A DNA stretch of 61,585 bases from Arthrobacter sp. APC 3897 (GTDB lineage: Bacteria; Actinomycetota; Actinomycetes; Actinomycetales; Micrococcaceae), in assembly GCF_030407495.1 (NCBI RefSeq), contig NZ_JASDDG010000031.1, forward strand, positions 1 to 61,585. Reading direction: 5' to 3'. This document shows positions 26,175-49,850 of the stretch, in pieces. The notes under the pieces are model-generated. The model made no database searches. It saw nothing but the letters and a program-made list of their open reading frames with translations, and was not told the DNA's origin. The translations under genes and the position numbers were made by a program. The first letter of the stretch is position 1; each line of letters begins with the position of its first letter.

Positions 26175-26522
26175 TTACCACATGGTGGCGACGGCGATGT
26201 TGACCACCGTCAGGATGCCCACGCCGTTGGCCAGGCCCTTGCTGACGGTCTCGCCCTTCTTGTACTTGCGCTGGCCGATGAAGGCCATGACGGCAATGAC
26301 CAGGGCCAGGCTGAGCTTGACGGCAATCTTGATGTGGTTGACATCAGCCCCATCCATTTCAGCCAGGCCGACCAGCATGATGCCGGTGACCAGCTGCAGG
26401 AGTGCACCATGGAACTGTCCGGGCATCACCGTGGGGTTCTTGATCTTGGCGAACCAGATACCAACGATGATTGCGGCGCCAAGAATGTGCAGGAAGACGA
26501 GAAAGCTCTGTAGGAAGTCCAT
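26175..26522 (-). CDS. Hypothetical four-helix membrane protein
   Basis: I do not recognise this 115-residue family. It is almost entirely hydrophobic, with four predicted membrane segments (about 3-22, 37-52, 64-83 and 95-114) and a lysine-rich loop (QRKYKKGE) between helices 3 and 4. A histidine in helix 1 (FLHILGAAI) and one in the first loop (FHGALLQ) could bind a ligand, but nothing proves this. It is flanked by terminators on both sides and appears monocistronic. Confidence 0.7.
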   Translation of the reverse strand: MDFLQSFLVFLHILGAAIIVGIWFAKIKNPTVMPGQFHGALLQLVTGIMLVGLAEMDGADVNHIKIAVKLSLALVIAVMAFIGQRKYKKGETVSKGLANGVGILTVVNIAVATMW

Positions 26523-26602
26523 ATATCCAGCTTACCGACACCATGTCAGCATTCCCGAACTGAGGGGTCTGAACCGCGGTAACTATTCGACAACATGTAG
26601 AA

Positions 26603-40367: not shown

Positions 40368-41336
40368 CTAGACAACACCCGGAGCGATCAGCAGTGTGGT
40401 GGGAACGGCGAGCAGCAGGCCGGACAGGATGAGCACTGCTGCCCGCTGCCAGGCAGGAAGCGGCGGACGGGGTGTCAGCAACCGGCTCAGGCGGTGAACC
40501 GTGCCGATTTTTTCCTGCTCCTCGGGGCTGCCCAGCAGCGGGGTGCCCCGGCCCTCGGCCGCGGCCGGATTCTCCGGGGGCGCCGCACCGCCGGTTCCGA
40601 CGATCGCCACCGCCCGGATAAGTGTCTCCGGCGGCACCGTGTGCAGGGCCTCGTCATCGGCGAGCATCTCGATGAGTTCGTTAACGGACTGCTGGGCCAG
40701 TTGGGAGGTGGGCAGCCACGGCAGTGCGGCGCGCCAGGCGGCAAAGGCCCACAGCAGCAGGTGGTGGTGCTGGCCCAGATGGGCTTTCTCGTGGATGAGG
40801 ACAGCGGAGAGCTCTTCGTCCGAGAGCATCTCAAGCAGCCCGTCCGAGAGCACGGTGACCGAGCGTGCGCCGCCCGGAAGGCAGTATGCCACCGGAACAG
40901 GGTGGTTGATGACCAGGGTGGCCGGCCGGGTGTCTGACGGGGAGCTCAGCAGCGCCAGCATGTCCCGGTGCCTGCGCCGGCCGCGGCGGATCCGGTAATA
41001 GGTCAGCAGGAGAGTGAAGATGAGGTGGGCGCTGAGCAGGAGGGCCGCACTAAGTGCGAACACATGCACCAGGCCCAGGGTGGTGGCCGGTTCGCCGCGC
41101 ACCAGGATGCCCCAAAGGCTCCCCAGGGCTTCAAGCAGGTTGTCGCCCAGAGGCTCCAAGCCCCAGGTCAGCATGGCGCCGATCATCGAGAGCCCGCCGG
41201 CCAGGGCAATGGCCTGCCACAGCACCATGGCGGTGAAGGGGGACCGGGCCGGCCATTTGGCGCGCGAAAGGATCATGGGAACAGGCCACGCCAGCAGGAG
41301 AGCCAGTGCGGCCAGTAAGTACGAGGCCCAAAACAT
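40368..41336 (-). CDS. M56 family (BlaR1/MecR1-like) membrane metallopeptidase
   Basis: The 322-residue membrane protein has several N-terminal helices and a cytoplasmic zinc-protease motif HEKAH (182-186) in the region between helices 3 and 4, like BlaR1. It lacks the extracytoplasmic penicillin-binding sensor domain of true BlaR1, so it must sense something else or respond through a partner. It lies 29 bases downstream of the BlaI-type repressor gene on the same strand, the classical repressor/protease pair in which the protease inactivates the repressor. Here the pair is divergent from the cytochrome bd operon. Confidence 0.88.
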   Translation of the reverse strand: MFWASYLLAALALLLAWPVPMILSRAKWPARSPFTAMVLWQAIALAGGLSMIGAMLTWGLEPLGDNLLEALGSLWGILVRGEPATTLGLVHVFALSAALLLSAHLIFTLLLTYYRIRRGRRRHRDMLALLSSPSDTRPATLVINHPVPVAYCLPGGARSVTVLSDGLLEMLSDEELSAVLIHEKAHLGQHHHLLLWAFAAWRAALPWLPTSQLAQQSVNELIEMLADDEALHTVPPETLIRAVAIVGTGGAAPPENPAAAEGRGTPLLGSPEEQEKIGTVHRLSRLLTPRPPLPAWQRAAVLILSGLLLAVPTTLLIAPGVV

Positions 41337-41365: not shown

Positions 41366-41743
41366 TCAGGCGCCGCCGAGCAGCCGGCGGAGGGTCTCCG
41401 CCTCGGTTGCCGACACTGAGCCGACAAAGCGTGCCAGCACGGCTTCACGGTCATTCACTGAGCCAAGGACTTCGTGCATTAGCTCGGCCGTGTGTTCAGC
41501 CTTGGAAGTGATGGCGCGGTAGCGGTGCGGCCGGATGTTGCGTTCGCGTTCCACCAGCCCCTTTTTCTCCAGCCGGGAGAGCACCGTGAGGATGGTGGTG
41601 ACAGCAAGTCCCCTGCCGTCCCCTGTGCCGGCGGCAGGGTTGGCCTGAGCCAGCCGTTCACGCAGTTCGTTTGCCGTGGCCGCCTCGGGTGACTCCCAGA
41701 GGAGGTCCATTGTTGCCCGTTCCAACTCACCGAGGGTAGCCAT
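41366..41743 (-). CDS. BlaI/MecI/CopY family transcriptional repressor
   Basis: This winged-helix repressor has 125 residues from the ATG at 41743; the ATG at 41755 is also in frame, but its AAGG lies directly against the codon. The family core is visible: LGELERATMDLLWE, then AVTTILTVLSRLEKKGLVERERNIRPHRYRA (helix-turn-helix and wing), and a C-terminal dimerisation helix region. It is co-oriented with the M56 protease gene. Two TTCTAC-N5-GTAGAA dyads (41862-41878, 41920-41936) in the divergent region are its likely operators. Confidence 0.9.
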   Translation of the reverse strand: MATLGELERATMDLLWESPEAATANELRERLAQANPAAGTGDGRGLAVTTILTVLSRLEKKGLVERERNIRPHRYRAITSKAEHTAELMHEVLGSVNDREAVLARFVGSVSATEAETLRRLLGGA

Positions 41744-41861
41744 TTGTGTTTCCATCCTTCAGCATCAATAGTCTACGAACCTTCGCCGGGGCCCGTGCGC
41801 TTCGGCCGGTGCCCGCAGAGAAGAGGTCCGGCTGTCCAATCTACAGGTTTTTTGTGATTGG

Positions 41862-41949
41862 TTCTACATCACGTAGAAATCTGTTTCGAATCTGATCTAC
41901 GATCAGAAGCAGAATGATCTTCTACGCTCTGTAGAAATCTGGTTCGAAT
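41862..41949 (+). promoter_or_regulatory. Duplicated 30-bp operator between blaI and cydA
   Basis: TTCTAC-N5-GTAGAA occurs at 41862-41878 and 41920-41936. In both copies AATCTGKTTCGAAT-type sequence continues, so 30 bp are repeated (41862-41891 and 41920-41949) with differences only in the N5 spacer and at one other base. A -10-like TACGAT (41898-41903) for cydA lies between the copies. On the minus strand TAGATT (41843-41838) would serve blaI, with the first dyad overlapping its -35 region. CTAC half-sites also occur at 41841 and 41897. Confidence 0.8.
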
Positions 41950-41963
41950 GAAGGAAACCTCCC

Positions 41964-43604
41964 GTGGAAGCACTCGATATTGCCCGCTGGCAGTTCGGTA
42001 TCACCACCGTCTACCACTTCCTCATGGTGCCGCTGACCATTGGCCTGGGGCTGGTCGTGGCAACCCTGCAGACCATGTGGGTCCGGACGGGCAAAGATGA
42101 ATACCTGCGCATGACCAAGTTCTGGGGAAAGCTCTTCCTCATCAACTTCATCATGGGCATCGCTACCGGCCTGGTGCAGGAATTTCAGTTCGGCATGGCC
42201 TGGAGCGAGTACAGCCGCTTCGTAGGCGACGTGTTCGGTGCGCCGCTGGCGCTGGAATCACTGCTGGCCTTCTTCACGGAGTCCGTGTTCCTTGGCCTGT
42301 GGATCTTCGGCTGGGGAAGGCTCTCCAAGAAGCTGCATCTTGCCTGCCTGTGGCTGGCAGTGCTGGCCTCGGTTCTGTCCGCCTACTTCATCCTGGCCGC
42401 GAACTCCTGGATGCAGCACCCCGTTGGCGTGGAAATGGTGGACGGCCGCCCCGTGCTCAATGACATCTGGGCTGTCCTGACCAACAACACCCTGCTGGTG
42501 GCGTTCCCGCACCAGATCACCGCTGCACTCTCGGTGGCCGGCGGATTCCTGCTCGGGATTGCCTGGTACCACCTGTGGAAGCGGCGCCGTGACGGGATCG
42601 ACACCGTCAACGAAGACGGCACCGTGAATGTCGGTGAACGCCCGGAGACCGGCCGCGACAAGACCGATTACAGCGTGTGGATCAAGTCCCTGCGCATCGG
42701 GGCGGTGGTCGCCATGGTGTCCTTCGCCGGCACAGCGATTACCGGTGACCTGCAGGGCAAGCTGATGTTCGAGCAGCAGCCCATGAAGATGGCGGCAGCG
42801 GAGGCTGCCTGCCATGACGGAACGTCCTTCTCGATCCTCTCTGTCGGCGACGTTGGCGCCAAGAACTGCGACGATGTCAAGGCTGTAATCGAAGTTCCCG
42901 GCCTGCTGTCCTTCCTGGCGAACAACAACTTCGACACCGAGGTGAAGGGCGTCAATACGTTGATCCCGGAGTACCAGGAGGCCTACGGAACCCACATTCC
43001 GGATGATCCCAAGTACGGTGCACAGGCCGGCACTGAAATCGATTATCTGCCGGTCATGTCCGTTACCTACTGGGGTTTCCGCATCATGATCGGCTTCGGC
43101 GGCATTGCTGCAGCCGCAGCCGCCTTCGCTCTGTGGATCACCCGCAAGGGGACCGTGCCCCAGTCCAAGTGGCTGATGCGACTGGCAGTGTTCGGCATCC
43201 TGGCTCCCTTCGGCGCCAACAGCGCGGGCTGGATCTTCACCGAGATGGGACGCCAGCCGTTTGTGGTCGCGCCCAACCCGAGTTTCACCGGCATCGACCA
43301 GGTCTTCATGTTTACGGCCGCGGCAGTTTCGCCCGGTGTTTCAAGGGCGGAGATGATCTTCTCGCTCGCCTGCTTCGCCCTGGTCTATCTGGCGCTGCTG
43401 GTGGTGGAAGTCCGGCTGCTGTTCAAGTTCACCCGCGGCGGTGTTCCGTCCGCCATGCCTGAGCTGCTCAACAGCGGCGGGCACGACGGCGGCTCCTCCG
43501 GCGGCATGGATTCTGCCGGCGGCGACGACGGCACGGGCAGTGACGGCAGCGGCGGCGGAACAAGAGCCAAGCAGCCCGACGATGTCCTCGGCTTTGCCTA
43601 CTAA
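41964..43604 (+). CDS. cydA: Cytochrome bd quinol oxidase subunit I
   Basis: CydA is the catalytic subunit of a high-affinity, proton-motive quinol oxidase used at low oxygen or under respiratory stress. In the 546-residue protein the heme ligands appear as His18 (TTVYHFL), His183 (FPHQIT) and Met428 in the conserved EMGRQPF. The Q-loop region contains QQPMKMAAAE. The C terminus is a Gly/Ser/Asp-rich tail (about 505-540), probably disordered. The GTG start has AAGGAA upstream. It heads the cydA-cydB-cydDC operon behind a duplicated dyad. Confidence 0.95.
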   Translation: MEALDIARWQFGITTVYHFLMVPLTIGLGLVVATLQTMWVRTGKDEYLRMTKFWGKLFLINFIMGIATGLVQEFQFGMAWSEYSRFVGDVFGAPLALESLLAFFTESVFLGLWIFGWGRLSKKLHLACLWLAVLASVLSAYFILAANSWMQHPVGVEMVDGRPVLNDIWAVLTNNTLLVAFPHQITAALSVAGGFLLGIAWYHLWKRRRDGIDTVNEDGTVNVGERPETGRDKTDYSVWIKSLRIGAVVAMVSFAGTAITGDLQGKLMFEQQPMKMAAAEAACHDGTSFSILSVGDVGAKNCDDVKAVIEVPGLLSFLANNNFDTEVKGVNTLIPEYQEAYGTHIPDDPKYGAQAGTEIDYLPVMSVTYWGFRIMIGFGGIAAAAAAFALWITRKGTVPQSKWLMRLAVFGILAPFGANSAGWIFTEMGRQPFVVAPNPSFTGIDQVFMFTAAAVSPGVSRAEMIFSLACFALVYLALLVVEVRLLFKFTRGGVPSAMPELLNSGGHDGGSSGGMDSAGGDDGTGSDGSGGGTRAKQPDDVLGFAY

Positions 43605-43622: not shown

Positions 43623-44642
43623 GTGATTTCGCTACCTACCCTTTGGTTCATCGTCCTGGCCTTCCTTTGGACCGGTTATTTGTTCCTGGAGGGCTTCGAC
43701 CTCGGCGTCGGCATGCTCATGAAGCTGATGGGCCGCAGCGAGAAGGACCGCCGTGTCATGCTGAACACCATCGGACCCGTCTGGGACGGCAACGAGGTGT
43801 GGCTGATTACCGCCGGTGCCATGACCTTTGCGACCTTCCCGCTCTGGTACGCGGCGCTCTTCTCGGCGCTGTACGTTCCGCTGGTGCTGGTCCTGCTGGG
43901 ACTAATCTTCCGGGCGGTGTCCATCGAATACCGCGGCAAGCACAACGACGACCGCTGGCGCAGCCGGTGGGACTGGGCCATGGCCCTGGGTTCCTTCGTC
44001 TCCGCCTTCGGCGTGGGAGCCGCCCTGGCACTGACCACCACCGGGCTGCCGCTGAATGAGAACGGCGACCGGGTGGGCGGAGCCTTTGCCTGGCTCAACG
44101 GTTACGCCGTCCTCGGCGGATTCGCCGTCGTTGCGTTCTGTCTGGTTCATGCCTGTGCCTTCCTGGCGCTGAAGTCCCGCGGCGACATTGAAATGCGCGC
44201 CCGGCGCGCCGTCGTCCGCTGGCTGCCCCTGGGTGTTGTCCCGATGGCCGCCTGGGCCATTGTGGTGCAGCAGCAGAACGGAAAAGCGCTGACCCTGATC
44301 CCGCTGGTCATCGCCGTGGTGGCAGTGGTGCTCGCCTGGGTCTCGGCGCGCCGCGGACGGGAAGGCTGGAGCTTCATCTGGATCGGCGCCTTCCTGGTGG
44401 CGGGTGTGTTCACGATCTTCGCCTCGCTCTACCCGAACGTGCTGCCCTCCACCCTGGACCCGGCATGGAACCTCACCGTCAACAACGCGTCCTCCTCCGA
44501 CTACACGCTGACCGTCATCTCCTGGGTCTCCCTCTTCGGCCTGCCCCTGGTGGTCCTTTACCAGGGGTGGACCTACTGGGTCTTCCGCAAGCGCATTTCC
44601 GCTGAATCCATCCCTGCGGCCCACTCGGTGACCGCTCAGTGA
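43623..44642 (+). CDS. cydB: Cytochrome bd quinol oxidase subunit II
   Basis: This membrane subunit pairs with CydA. Its 339 residues contain about eight to nine helices and the family N terminus LWFIVLAFLWTGYLFLEGFDLGVG and the conserved GPVWDGNEVWLI loop. The GTG start is preceded by GGAG. The stop codon overlaps the cydDC start (GTGA), so assembly factors are coupled to the oxidase subunits. Confidence 0.95.
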   Translation: MISLPTLWFIVLAFLWTGYLFLEGFDLGVGMLMKLMGRSEKDRRVMLNTIGPVWDGNEVWLITAGAMTFATFPLWYAALFSALYVPLVLVLLGLIFRAVSIEYRGKHNDDRWRSRWDWAMALGSFVSAFGVGAALALTTTGLPLNENGDRVGGAFAWLNGYAVLGGFAVVAFCLVHACAFLALKSRGDIEMRARRAVVRWLPLGVVPMAAWAIVVQQQNGKALTLIPLVIAVVAVVLAWVSARRGREGWSFIWIGAFLVAGVFTIFASLYPNVLPSTLDPAWNLTVNNASSSDYTLTVISWVSLFGLPLVVLYQGWTYWVFRKRISAESIPAAHSVTAQ

Positions 44643-47600
44643 AACCGGTCCTTCCGGTCAGCGCCGCCAGCCGGCGGGCGCTGTATCTCCTGGGTCTGCT
44701 GGCCGCCGTCAAGGCGGCGGGCCTGGTGCTCCTGGCCACGGGTGTGGCGGCCGGAGTGGCCGGGCTTGCCGCCGGGGACCCCGATTGGCGCTGGGTGTTT
44801 GCCAACGGCATCGCCGGAGCGGTGCTGCGCTCACTCGCCGTCTGGGGCACCGAGACGGTATCCCAGCGCGCCGCAGCAGGAGTGAAGGAGGAGTTGCGTG
44901 CCTCCCTGACCAAACGGGCGCTCGACGACGGCGGCAACGTTCCAGGCATGGGCAGCGGTGCGCTGAGCGTGCTGATCACCCGGGGGCTGGACGGACTGGA
45001 CAACTACTACGCCAAGTACCTGCCCGCCCTGGTGACGTGCGCCGTCGTCCCCCTGCTCGTGGGCCTGCGCATCCTCTCCGCGGACTGGCTCAGCGCGGTG
45101 GTGGTGGTCTTGACCGTGCCCCTGGTACCGGTCTTCATGATCCTGATCGGGCTGCACACCGGAGACAAGACCGCCGCCGCCGTGGATGCGCTCAACCGCC
45201 TCTCCGACAACATGCTGGAGCTGGCCAAGGGACTGCCGGTCCTCGTTGGACTGGGGCGCGCGAAGGCCCAGACCAGAGCGCTGCGCGATGTAGCCGAGAA
45301 CTACCGCGTCCGCACGCTGGAAACCCTTCGCATCGCGTTCCTGTCCGCGCTGGCCCTGGAACTTATTGCCACCATCTCCGTGGCACTGGTGGCCGTCGTG
45401 ATCGGCGTACGCCTGGTCAACGGCTCCATGTCCCTGGAGCTTGGACTGCTCGCCCTGATCCTGGCGCCGGAGTGCTATCAGCCGCTGCGTGACCTGGGCA
45501 CGGCCCACCACGCCAGTGAAGACGGGCTGGAGGCGCTCAAACGCACCAACGCGGTGCTCGACGCTCCGCCTGCCGAGCCGCTGGTGCCGGAGGCTGCCGA
45601 CAACGCGGTTGCCGGCCTGCCCGGTGCGCTGGCCTTATCCGGACCCCCGCTCTCCGTCGGCGGGCTGACCATCAGGTATGCCGGCAGGCCCCGGCCGGCC
45701 GTGTCCAATCTCAGCTTCGAGGTTCCCGCCGGCAGCATTGCAGCCCTCACCGGATCCAGCGGCAGCGGCAAGACCTCCGTGCTGGAAACCCTCGCCGGAC
45801 TGCGCCGCAGCGGCGGCGACACCGTGCTGGAAGGCTCCGTAACCGGCGTCGACCGCACCGGCATTGCCTGGATCCCGCAGCACCCGGTGCTGGTGGAAGA
45901 CACCGCCGCCGAAGAGATTGCCCTCTACTCCGGCTTGGGCCCGGGGGAGGAAGGGCGGCAGGCTGCGGCAAATGCGCTCGCGGCTATCGGGGCACTGCAC
46001 CTGCTGGAGAGCCGCACCGCGGACCTAAGCCCCGGCGAGCAGCGGCGCGTGGCTGTGGCCCGTGCCCTGGCCAGGATTGCCTGCCAGCCCCGGGTTCGTG
46101 TGCTGCTGGCGGACGAACCCACGGCGCATCTGGATGCTGCCAGCGCCGCTGCTGTCATCCGTGCCCTGAAAGACCTGCGCGGAACCGTCACCGTCCTGCT
46201 GGTGGCGCACGACGCGGCTGCCGCTGCCATTGCCGACACCCTGATTCCCGTGGACGCCGGCATGTCCAACCTGGCGGCAGCATCGGGAACGGCGCCGGTG
46301 GCGGCCCCGCCGGGGAACGCACCCGCCGCGGCAACCCCCGCGGCATCGTCCGTCACCGGCGACGCCGCAGAGCCTGCCCCCGTGCGCTGGCAGGACGAGC
46401 TCGCGGAAACCGAGTCCCATCCGGTGCACCAGCCGCTGTGGAAGAACCTCCTGGTGCTGCGGCCCTGGAGCCCCCAGTTCCTGCTGGCCCTGCTCCTGGG
46501 CACCGGAGCGACGCTTTTTGCCGTGGCCCTTACTTCGCTGTCCGGCTGGCTGATTGTCCGGGCCAATGAACAGCCGCCCATCATGCTGCTGCTCACCGCC
46601 ATTGTCGGGGTGCGGTTCTTCGGGATCGGCCGTGCCGTGCTCCGCTACCTCGAACGGCTCCGCCTGCACGACGCCGTCTTCCGCGCCACCAACACCATCC
46701 GCATCCGCCTGTGGAACGGCCTGCTGCAGCGGCCCGAGGGATGGCGCCGGCTCGCCCGCGGCGGAGGAGCGCTGGAACGGCTGGTGGGGGATGTTGACGA
46801 ACTGCGGGACATCGCCCCTCGCGTTGTCTTTGCGCCGATCACCGGATTCTTCACCGCCGTCGCTGCGTGTATTGCCACAGGCCTGCTGCTGCCCGAAGCA
46901 CTCGGCGTGCAGATCCTGGTCTGCGTGGTGGGCCTGGTCATTGCACCGCTGGTGGCCGTGGGGGCCGACGCGGCCGCCCGTGCTGCCACTGTGCGGCTGC
47001 AGTCACGGTCCATGGCGGCCATGGCGCGGCTGCTGGACGCGGCAGCGGATCTGGAAGCCAACAGCAGCGCCGCACCTGTGTTTGCACGCCAGCAGGAACT
47101 CGATGCGCGGGCCAGCGCTGCCGTGCGCCGCAGCGCGTGGGCCCAGGGCCTGGCCAATGCGCTTACCGCCCTGGCCTGCTCCCTGGGGTCCCTCTACGTG
47201 CTGACCGTGGCGGGGAACATTCCGGCGACGGTAGCCGCCGTCGTAGTGCTGATGCAGCTGGCGCTGATCGAAGCCTTCGTAGCCGTCAACGGTTCCATCC
47301 AGCAGTTCACCGCCTGGCGGACCCTGGGCGACAAGGTGCTCCCTGACCTTGGTACAGACACAGTGGAAGCGGACGCGGACATGGACGCCGGGGGCCGGAC
47401 GCCGGTCCCTGCCGTGGATACCGTTGAACTGCGTGGTATCAGCTATACCTATCCGGGTGAGAAGACCCCGGTGTTCGAGGATCTGGACCTGGACCTTCGC
47501 CGTGGAAGCTGGCTGGCCGTGACCGGGCCTTCCGGCAGCGGAAAGTCCACCTTGCTCGGCGTCCTGCTGGGCTTCCTCACCCCGCAGGAGGGAACCTTCC

Positions 47601-48085
47601 GTATCAACGGCCGTGCAGCGGCAACACTGCCGCCTGCTGCACGGCGGATGGCCTGGTGCCCGCAGGAGGCCCACCTGTTCGATTCGACCCTGCGCGGTAA
47701 CCTGCTGCTGGCCCGCGACCGCAGCCAGGCGCCCACCGAGGAGGAAATGGCAGCGGCCCTTCGCGCCGTCGGCCTCGGCCCGTTCCTCGCCGGTCTGCCG
47801 GAAGGGCTGGACACCCGTGTAGGCGGCGGCGGACACTTCCTGTCCGGCGGGCAGCGCCAGCGCCTGGCGGTGGCACGCGCACTCCTGACGGAAGCCGACG
47901 TCGTGCTCCTGGACGAACCCACGGCCCACCTGGACGCGGAAGCGGGGGAGCAGCTGATGGCAGACCTGTCCGCCGGACTGCGCGGCAAATCCGTGGTGGT
48001 CGTGACCCACAACCCTGCCGATGCCGCCTGGTGTTCGCGCAGAATCGTGCTGGGACAGCAGATATGCACCCAATCACACTGCTAG
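44639..48085 (+). CDS. cydDC: Fused CydDC thiol-reductant ABC exporter
   Basis: CydDC exports glutathione/cysteine-type reductants in enterobacteria and is needed for cytochrome bd assembly. Here both half-transporters are joined in one chain of 1148 residues: CydD (six helices, then Walker A GSSGSGKTS and Walker B VRVLLADEPTAHLD) and, after an Ala/Pro linker (about 540-580), CydC (six helices, Walker [10 protein letters not shown], signature LSGGQRQRLAVARAL, Walker B VVLLDEPTAHLD). The CydD signature reads LSPGEQ and not LSGGQ, so one nucleotide site is probably degenerate. Actinobacteria lack glutathione, so the cargo is open. Confidence 0.93.
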   Translation: MKPVLPVSAASRRALYLLGLLAAVKAAGLVLLATGVAAGVAGLAAGDPDWRWVFANGIAGAVLRSLAVWGTETVSQRAAAGVKEELRASLTKRALDDGGNVPGMGSGALSVLITRGLDGLDNYYAKYLPALVTCAVVPLLVGLRILSADWLSAVVVVLTVPLVPVFMILIGLHTGDKTAAAVDALNRLSDNMLELAKGLPVLVGLGRAKAQTRALRDVAENYRVRTLETLRIAFLSALALELIATISVALVAVVIGVRLVNGSMSLELGLLALILAPECYQPLRDLGTAHHASEDGLEALKRTNAVLDAPPAEPLVPEAADNAVAGLPGALALSGPPLSVGGLTIRYAGRPRPAVSNLSFEVPAGSIAALTGSSGSGKTSVLETLAGLRRSGGDTVLEGSVTGVDRTGIAWIPQHPVLVEDTAAEEIALYSGLGPGEEGRQAAANALAAIGALHLLESRTADLSPGEQRRVAVARALARIACQPRVRVLLADEPTAHLDAASAAAVIRALKDLRGTVTVLLVAHDAAAAAIADTLIPVDAGMSNLAAASGTAPVAAPPGNAPAAATPAASSVTGDAAEPAPVRWQDELAETESHPVHQPLWKNLLVLRPWSPQFLLALLLGTGATLFAVALTSLSGWLIVRANEQPPIMLLLTAIVGVRFFGIGRAVLRYLERLRLHDAVFRATNTIRIRLWNGLLQRPEGWRRLARGGGALERLVGDVDELRDIAPRVVFAPITGFFTAVAACIATGLLLPEALGVQILVCVVGLVIAPLVAVGADAAARAATVRLQSRSMAAMARLLDAAADLEANSSAAPVFARQQELDARASAAVRRSAWAQGLANALTALACSLGSLYVLTVAGNIPATVAAVVVLMQLALIEAFVAVNGSIQQFTAWRTLGDKVLPDLGTDTVEADADMDAGGRTPVPAVDTVELRGISYTYPGEKTPVFEDLDLDLRRGSWLAVTGPSGSGKSTLLGVLLGFLTPQEGTFRINGRAAATLPPAARRMAWCPQEAHLFDSTLRGNLLLARDRSQAPTEEEMAAALRAVGLGPFLAGLPEGLDTRVGGGGHFLSGGQRQRLAVARALLTEADVVLLDEPTAHLDAEAGEQLMADLSAGLRGKSVVVVTHNPADAAWCSRRIVLGQQICTQSHC

Positions 48086-49154: not shown

Positions 49155-49850
49155 TCAGTCCTGCGGGGTTTGCTCCGCGCCGGGAGCCCTCAGGACCCAG
49201 ATGGCCTGGGCAGCGGGAAGACCGAGTTCCAGCTGTTCGCCGCCCGCTGTGACGGTCAGGGTTCCGGCGTAGGACTGGCGGGAGAGGACGCGGACCTGCA
49301 CATCCAAATGCAGCCCCAGTCCGGCCAGATACCGCAGCAGCTCCGGGTCCGTGTCCGAAACCCGCGCAATGCTCACCACGCTGCCGGGCTCGCAGCCGCT
49401 GAGCCGAACCGCGGCCAGCGGCGGGAAGCTTCCGGTGCGCGTGGGAATGGGATCTCCGTGCGGATCACGGACGGGGTAGCCCAGCCGCCGGTCCAGGGCA
49501 TTTACCATCTTGTCGGAGACGGCGTGTTCGAGGTGCTCGGCTTCGTCATGGACCTCGTCCCAGCCATAGCCCAGGTACTCCACCAGGAAGGTCTCGATCA
49601 GCCGGTGCCGGCGCACCATGGCCACCGCCTCGCGGGTTCCTTCCTCCGTGAGGGTGATGGAACCGTAGCGTGCATGGGTCAGCAGTCCCTGGGCCGTCAG
49701 CTTCTTCACCGCTTCGGAGACCGACGACGGCGAATTGCCCACGTGCGCGGAGAGCGCAGAAACCGTGACCGGCGCGTCAGTCCATTCCTGGGCGGTCCAG
49801 ATGACCTTGAGATAGTCCTCGGAAGCAGTTGAAAGCGAATTGGTACCCAC
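49155..49850 (-). CDS. DtxR/MntR family metal-dependent regulator, manganese-type ligand set
   Basis: The 231-residue repressor has a winged helix (about 1-70), a dimerisation/metal domain (about 71-140) and a C-terminal SH3-like FeoA domain (about 150-220). Ligands align with Bacillus MntR and not with DtxR: Asp12 (SEDYLK), His82, Glu86, His101, Glu105, Glu108 and His109 (HDEAEHLEH); Glu105 replaces the DtxR cysteine. This favours manganese sensing. TAAGGT on the minus strand (49862-49857) is six bases before the GTG, suggesting a leaderless mRNA. The targets are not in the window. Confidence 0.88.
   Translation of the reverse strand: MGTNSLSTASEDYLKVIWTAQEWTDAPVTVSALSAHVGNSPSSVSEAVKKLTAQGLLTHARYGSITLTEEGTREAVAMVRRHRLIETFLVEYLGYGWDEVHDEAEHLEHAVSDKMVNALDRRLGYPVRDPHGDPIPTRTGSFPPLAAVRLSGCEPGSVVSIARVSDTDPELLRYLAGLGLHLDVQVRVLSRQSYAGTLTVTAGGEQLELGLPAAQAIWVLRAPGAEQTPQD

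Follow-up and report, generated by a model that had tools for sequence, protein, structure and literature searches.

The window, by which we mean the whole analysed stretch of 61,585 nucleotides from Arthrobacter sp. APC 3897 (genome G000), encoded on its minus strand a BlaR1-like membrane metalloprotease of the M56/M48 type (322 aa; 40368..41336) and the Penicillinase_R repressor BlaI (41366..41755; Pfam 8e-20). Divergent from these, on the plus strand, were cydA (cytochrome bd subunit I; 41964..43604; Pfam 2e-150), cydB (subunit II; 43623..44642; Pfam 3e-104) and a CydD-CydC fusion exporter (44639..48085; NCBIfam CydD 708 bits, CydC 594 bits). BlaI matched Penicillinase_R (PF03965) over positions 1-113 of 115 with 71.7 bits (cut-off 22.6), which places it in the family, and it was the sole match to that family in G000. 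Its nearest solved structure was PDB 2g9w (E 2.8e-16), which we take to be that of Mycobacterium tuberculosis BlaI (Rv1846c). The protease scored above the cut-off for Peptidase_M48 (5e-9) and just under it for Peptidase_M56 (8e-7; 29.0 against 31), with HEKAH at residues 182-186; HExxH was present in 114 of 116 protease sequences, as in the zinc proteases BlaR1 and MecR1, with membrane topology taken from sequence alone. Cys152 was likewise kept in 114/116 (80/80 near relatives, 33/35 others, and the window). No C-terminal penicillin-binding sensor domain was found in the 322-aa protein (Pfam, E 0.001). Pfam and NCBIfam thus confirmed two proposals of the initial annotation, namely a BlaI/M56 pair beside an operon for a terminal oxidase and its exporter, and an M56 protein devoid of a penicillin-binding sensor.

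The same annotation had described two copies of a 30-bp element, 58 bp apart, between blaI and cydA. Both exact dyads were found as described, dyad 1 (TTCTAC-ATCAC-GTAGAA) at 41862..41878 and dyad 3 (TTCTAC-GCTCT-GTAGAA) at 41920..41936. The 30-bp repeat did not hold as the unit: its ATCTGNTTCGAAT flank, sought at up to 3/12 mismatches after any dyad, was absent in 78 of 80 blaI loci and present in two (L008 with 3 mismatches, L016 with 2), leaving the 17-bp TTCTAC-N5-GTAGAA as the unit. A further copy with a degraded right arm, dyad 2 (ATCTACGATCAGAAGCA, three mismatches; 41895..41911), lay 33 bp after dyad 1, in register with the middle dyad seen in relatives, its distance of 25 bp to dyad 3 falling within the 23-26 bp seen in 68 loci. 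Loss of the right arm of the middle dyad also occurred in L008 and L014, where CTACGAT was kept in register as in the window. Across the window there were four matches with no more than two mismatches against 0.32 expected, and a one-mismatch dyad (TTCGACAACATGTAGAA; 26586..26602) was centred about 70 bp upstream of the gene for a 115-aa membrane protein, here called U115. With a shorter 15-mer, G000 as a whole gave seven matches against four for the reversed control.

Conservation was evaluated in the best 80 of 145 blaI loci, mostly from Arthrobacter and near relatives (1.28 Mb). cydA was divergent from blaI in 78 of these, and all 80 held at least one exact dyad. Every one of the 222 exact dyads lay in the blaI-cydA gap or, in two cyd-less loci, at most 260 bp upstream of blaI. 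Spacers of 0-4 or 6-11 nucleotides between the arms gave no match in these 80 loci, nor did 59 permuted arms. As the loci come from close relatives, part of this agreement reflects descent; the arms are fixed while spacers and surroundings vary, which argues for selection. Both exact dyads are real and under constraint. When the window was added and sites with 0-1 mismatch were counted (those with 2-3 left out), three dyads were present in 68 of 81 sequences, two in 11 and one in 2.

The dyads also stood in a fixed relation to candidate promoters. In all 81 sequences an A---TA word lay at a distance of 18 bp from dyad 1, and in none did it lie at shifts of 1-3 bp; read leftwards it becomes TAnnnT, the likely blaI -10 (TAGATT on the minus strand of the window, 41838..41843), with dyad 1 at the corresponding -35. 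The likely blaI promoter thus carries a palindromic putative operator at a constant offset, as is characteristic of the BlaI/MecI family. From its spacing, dyad 1 likely covers the cydA -35 position as well. The middle dyad had T at spacer position 3, creating TACnnT, in 68/68 loci, against 13/68 and 11/68 for outer dyads 1 and 3, and we regard this word as the likely cydA -10 (TACGAT, plus strand, 41898..41903, inside dyad 2 in the window). Dyad 3 would then fall between this -10 and the cydA start. Two earlier suggestions, that one exact dyad overlaps the likely blaI -35 and that the exact pair flanks a cydA -10 candidate, agree with this geometry.

Exact dyads were not confined to this gap. 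The 29 genomes analysed in the window's genus, G000 among them, each held 3-7, compared with 0-2 matches to the reversed control. We read 20 regions out of the sites listed for the genus, five of them from G000, of which three held one-mismatch dyads, one (L142) without an assigned role. The exact dyads of G000 lay at cydA/blaI (two), hemQ (L138) and the gene for a small protein, U140 (L141), and its one-mismatch dyads at ctaE-qcrC (L139), CopD-CtaG (L140), U115 (26586) and L142. The initial annotation had called for a search in front of respiration genes across the Micrococcaceae, and in 12 further genomes of the family, placed outside the genus from their named loci (reached via L018, L021, L022, L024, L028, L029, L050, L051, L057, L066, L079 and L080), we found 71 exact dyads against seven reversed matches. 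Sorted by homology and position, with family checks of the regulon genes made on one representative each, these fell at blaI/cydA (31), hemQ (10), hmp (9), U140 (6), qcrC (4), phosphatase-ccsX-ccdA (3), a pyridoxamine-oxidase-like gene (PNPOx; 2), a group III truncated haemoglobin (2), U115 (1) and ABC-ABC-ctaA (1), with two sites (L179, L190) left unassigned. In all, 69/71 sites lay at cyd/blaI, haem, globin or cytochrome genes or at three genes of unknown role, and none of these 69 was assigned to an atp or beta-lactamase gene.

An exact dyad preceded hemQ by 54-56 bp in 29/29 congeners; at L187, a site from the genomes outside the genus, it lies 4 bp within the aligned start of hemQ. hmp was found in five of the 29 congeners, with an exact dyad in three and without one in two (one hmp match being partial), and no hmp was found in G000. 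At some sites between divergent genes the target is ambiguous: cytochrome-c maturation or a YceI-like gene (L164, L169), ctaE or a trpD-like gene (L139), and ABC-ctaA or a sufR-like gene (L184). In genus and family, including six of the 12 genomes outside the genus, an exact dyad stood 37-95 bp ahead of U140 (L141:3003-3422, minus strand). U115 (26175..26522, minus strand), with four predicted helices (AlphaFold pLDDT 93.8) and no Pfam family match, is a probable member of the regulon, exact dyads preceding its homologues in L145, L146, L192, L203, L217 and L237, and is a candidate haem- or oxidase-related factor. In 11 U115 sequences His12 was invariant and His63 nearly so, and dyads preceded homologues in families f1, f4 and f19. 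Three genomes of the genus (L147, L153, L157) also had exact dyads near a MarR-like gene and an SNF2 helicase, which the regulon does not explain.

Beyond the family, BlaI was matched in 23 of 30 class members checked, and an exact dyad was present in 21 of 148 genomes across the class, with no enrichment outside families f1, f4 and f19 (4 against 20 reversed). Among 31 loci read outside the family, 24 were assigned, to cydA/blaI (11), hemE-hemY (6), CopC/CopD-CtaG (4), U115 (2) and ccsX (1), the hemE and CopC readings being backed by Pfam in a single locus each (L204, L200) and by neighbouring genes in the rest. The other seven (L202, L208, L211, L212, L213, L227, L229), and a second dyad in L215, had no assigned gene; in L199 the blaI-cydA gap held three dyads at 19-bp intervals. 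In family f19, dyads recurred by a gene that, from its sequence, is FAD-dependent monooxygenase-like (L202, L211, L227). TTCTAC-N5-GTAGAA was absent, even at three mismatches, from 16 of 30 BlaI loci of other families, including L239 (55% identity). A related site, TACTAC-N5-GTAGTA-like (at most two mismatches, within 100 bp before blaI), occurred in 14 of these 30 loci; 89 permuted arms gave 0.03 on average and 1 at most. The sites listed fall in families f7, f18, f21 and f26, with TACTAC/TACGAC-like arms. blaI was divergent from cydA in four of the 30 (L241, L243, L245, L247). Relatives of blaI in family f16 (L256, L267) were near ccsX-like genes, and in L256 also near CopD-CtaG-like genes, which makes this a further setting among respiratory genes.

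From the motif, its conservation and geometry, the set of genes behind it and its co-occurrence with BlaI, we infer that the dyads are operators of the adjacent repressor. A BlaI dimer on dyad 1 would cover the blaI -35, giving autorepression, together with the likely cydA -35, and dimers on dyads 2 and 3 would cover and flank the cydA -10, so that both divergent promoters may be repressed by occlusion, as geometry and family suggest. The same protein would repress the hemQ-hemH promoter of haem synthesis and, depending on species, hmp, the group III truncated haemoglobin, qcrC, cytochrome-c maturation, ABC-ctaA, CtaG-type genes and the three genes of unknown role. That BlaI governs a respiration and haem regulon is, in our judgement, very probable. 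Repression need not be its action everywhere, and BlaI might repress blaI and cydA yet activate, or be inert at, hemQ, qcrC and the globins, since at hemQ and hmp sites, except L187, 53-111 bp lie between the dyad and the start, whereas at cydA the dyad is over the promoter. We consider this unlikely, because the family precedent is repression, 16-20 bp separate the dyad from the start at truncated haemoglobin, ABC-ctaA and PNPOx-like genes, and the hemQ and hmp distances count from gene starts, not from transcription starts.

Three tests favour BlaI as the protein that reads the dyad: the separation of blaI from cyd, genomes with cydA but no BlaI, and the related sites before blaI in other families described above. 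In L079 and L080 the cyd genes were not adjacent to blaI, which kept one dyad, and in the genome of L080 cydA was found elsewhere with two dyads 24 bp apart (L172). Eight of nine genomes checked had cydA, six of these without BlaI at E 0.001 (G170, G109, G151, G179, G079, G129), and in the six no dyad preceded the cydA copies read, the best site having 4-5 mismatches (the copies read did not include the third cydA-like match of G129 or part of a match in G179). G131 and G161 had both BlaI and exact dyads at cydA, and G044 had neither BlaI nor cydA. G170, G131 and G161 belong to one genus, the cydA of G170 standing at 44-59% identity against 68-71% in its congeners, and the other five BlaI-less genomes are from other families; since their cydA genes are more distant, the missing dyads are weaker evidence there, and we take them as suggestive of BlaI as the reader. 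Rex and CRP regulate cyd genes in other organisms. Excerpts of PMC5874750 name SenX3-RegX3 as another such regulator, and many dyad-bearing promoters lie far from blaI, so that the dyads could instead bind a respiration regulator encoded elsewhere, with BlaI a mere neighbour. This is improbable given that dyad 1 stays tied to the blaI promoter where no cyd gene adjoins it, that the six BlaI-less genomes lack dyads before the cydA copies read, and that related sites precede blaI in other families. Conservation, promoter geometry and the separate location of blaI and cydA in the genome of L080 all support the originally proposed link, through the dyads, between BlaI and cytochrome bd, which appears to be part of a wider regulon. 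Least probable is a classical system induced by beta-lactams in which cyd is included by chance. This would suit the BlaI and BlaR1-like protein families and the statements in parts of PMC5473688 that blaC is a target of M. tuberculosis BlaI and that cydAB rises under a beta-lactam given with clavulanate, but not a 322-aa M56 protein lacking the sensor domain or the assignment of 69/71 sites, by homology and position, to other genes.

How BlaI repression would be relieved is suggested by the protease. The Asn-Phe pair of MecI, presumably equivalent to the Asn101-Phe102 cut of Staphylococcus aureus BlaI, aligned with Arg109-Phe110 of the window protein; Phe110 was kept in 120 of 121 sequences, with Arg before it in 98. 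PMC9834060 places the cut in S. aureus BlaI at Asn101-Phe102. We think it somewhat probable that the M56 protease relieves repression, and it would do so by cutting BlaI near Phe110. The trigger may be a respiratory block, sensed through nitric oxide, a low oxygen level, damaged haem or the redox state of quinol. That Cys152 has a redox or NO role is speculation. On a broader reading, which we rate as less probable than not, BlaI and a sensorless M56 protein would have served actinobacteria as an ancestral sensor of damage to the respiratory chain, switching cytochrome bd, haem synthesis and NO-detoxifying globins together, and beta-lactam control would be a later addition; the near-invariant Cys152, 30 residues before HExxH, would act as a redox, NO or haem switch.

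Compared with known systems, the locus shares with S. aureus BlaI-BlaR1 and MecI-MecR1 the fold of the repressor, a Phe where the cleavage site aligns and an HExxH membrane protease, but has no beta-lactam sensor and has other targets; the S. aureus BlaI/MecI operator also differs from the Arthrobacter dyad. SrrAB/ResDE-type regulons target cytochrome bd, haem synthesis and Hmp, a similar set, but here a repressor and putative protease take the place of a two-component system, making the locus an analogue and not a member. The nearest precedent is M. tuberculosis BlaI/BlaR (Rv1846c/Rv1845c), with which it shares a sensorless BlaR and a probable action of BlaI on respiratory genes. The L184 dyad stands before ABC-ABC-ctaA, which we take to be the Rv1458c-1456c arrangement, and Rv1458c-1456c is reportedly a BlaI target according to the abstract of a 2009 M. 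tuberculosis study. Unlike in M. tuberculosis, blaI here is divergent from cydABCD, sites occur at hemQ, hmp, the truncated haemoglobin, qcrC and cytochrome-c maturation, and none of the exact sites was assigned to an atp or beta-lactamase gene. We found no description, in the literature searched, of the divergent cyd arrangement or of a haem, globin and cytochrome BlaI regulon outside mycobacteria. A repressor family best known for penicillin resistance appears to control respiration in Arthrobacter and some other actinobacterial families, and one of its members gains a coherent respiratory regulon whose operator is sharply defined. This predicts how some non-mycobacterial actinobacteria switch on cytochrome bd, makes testable what sensorless BlaR-like proteases sense, and offers a possible reason for the action of M. 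tuberculosis BlaI on ATP synthase. The link between BlaI and respiration has precedent there, as parts of PMC5874750 and PMC5473688 describe BlaI regulation of the atp operon and a mycobacterial BlaR without sensor, and state, by citing a 2009 paper, that BlaI binds at the cytochrome bd promoter. As a separate observation, a gene for a DtxR/IdeR-type iron repressor (49155-49850, minus strand) lies just beyond the cyd operon of the window; excerpts of PMC7924339 place M. tuberculosis blaI in the IdeR regulon.
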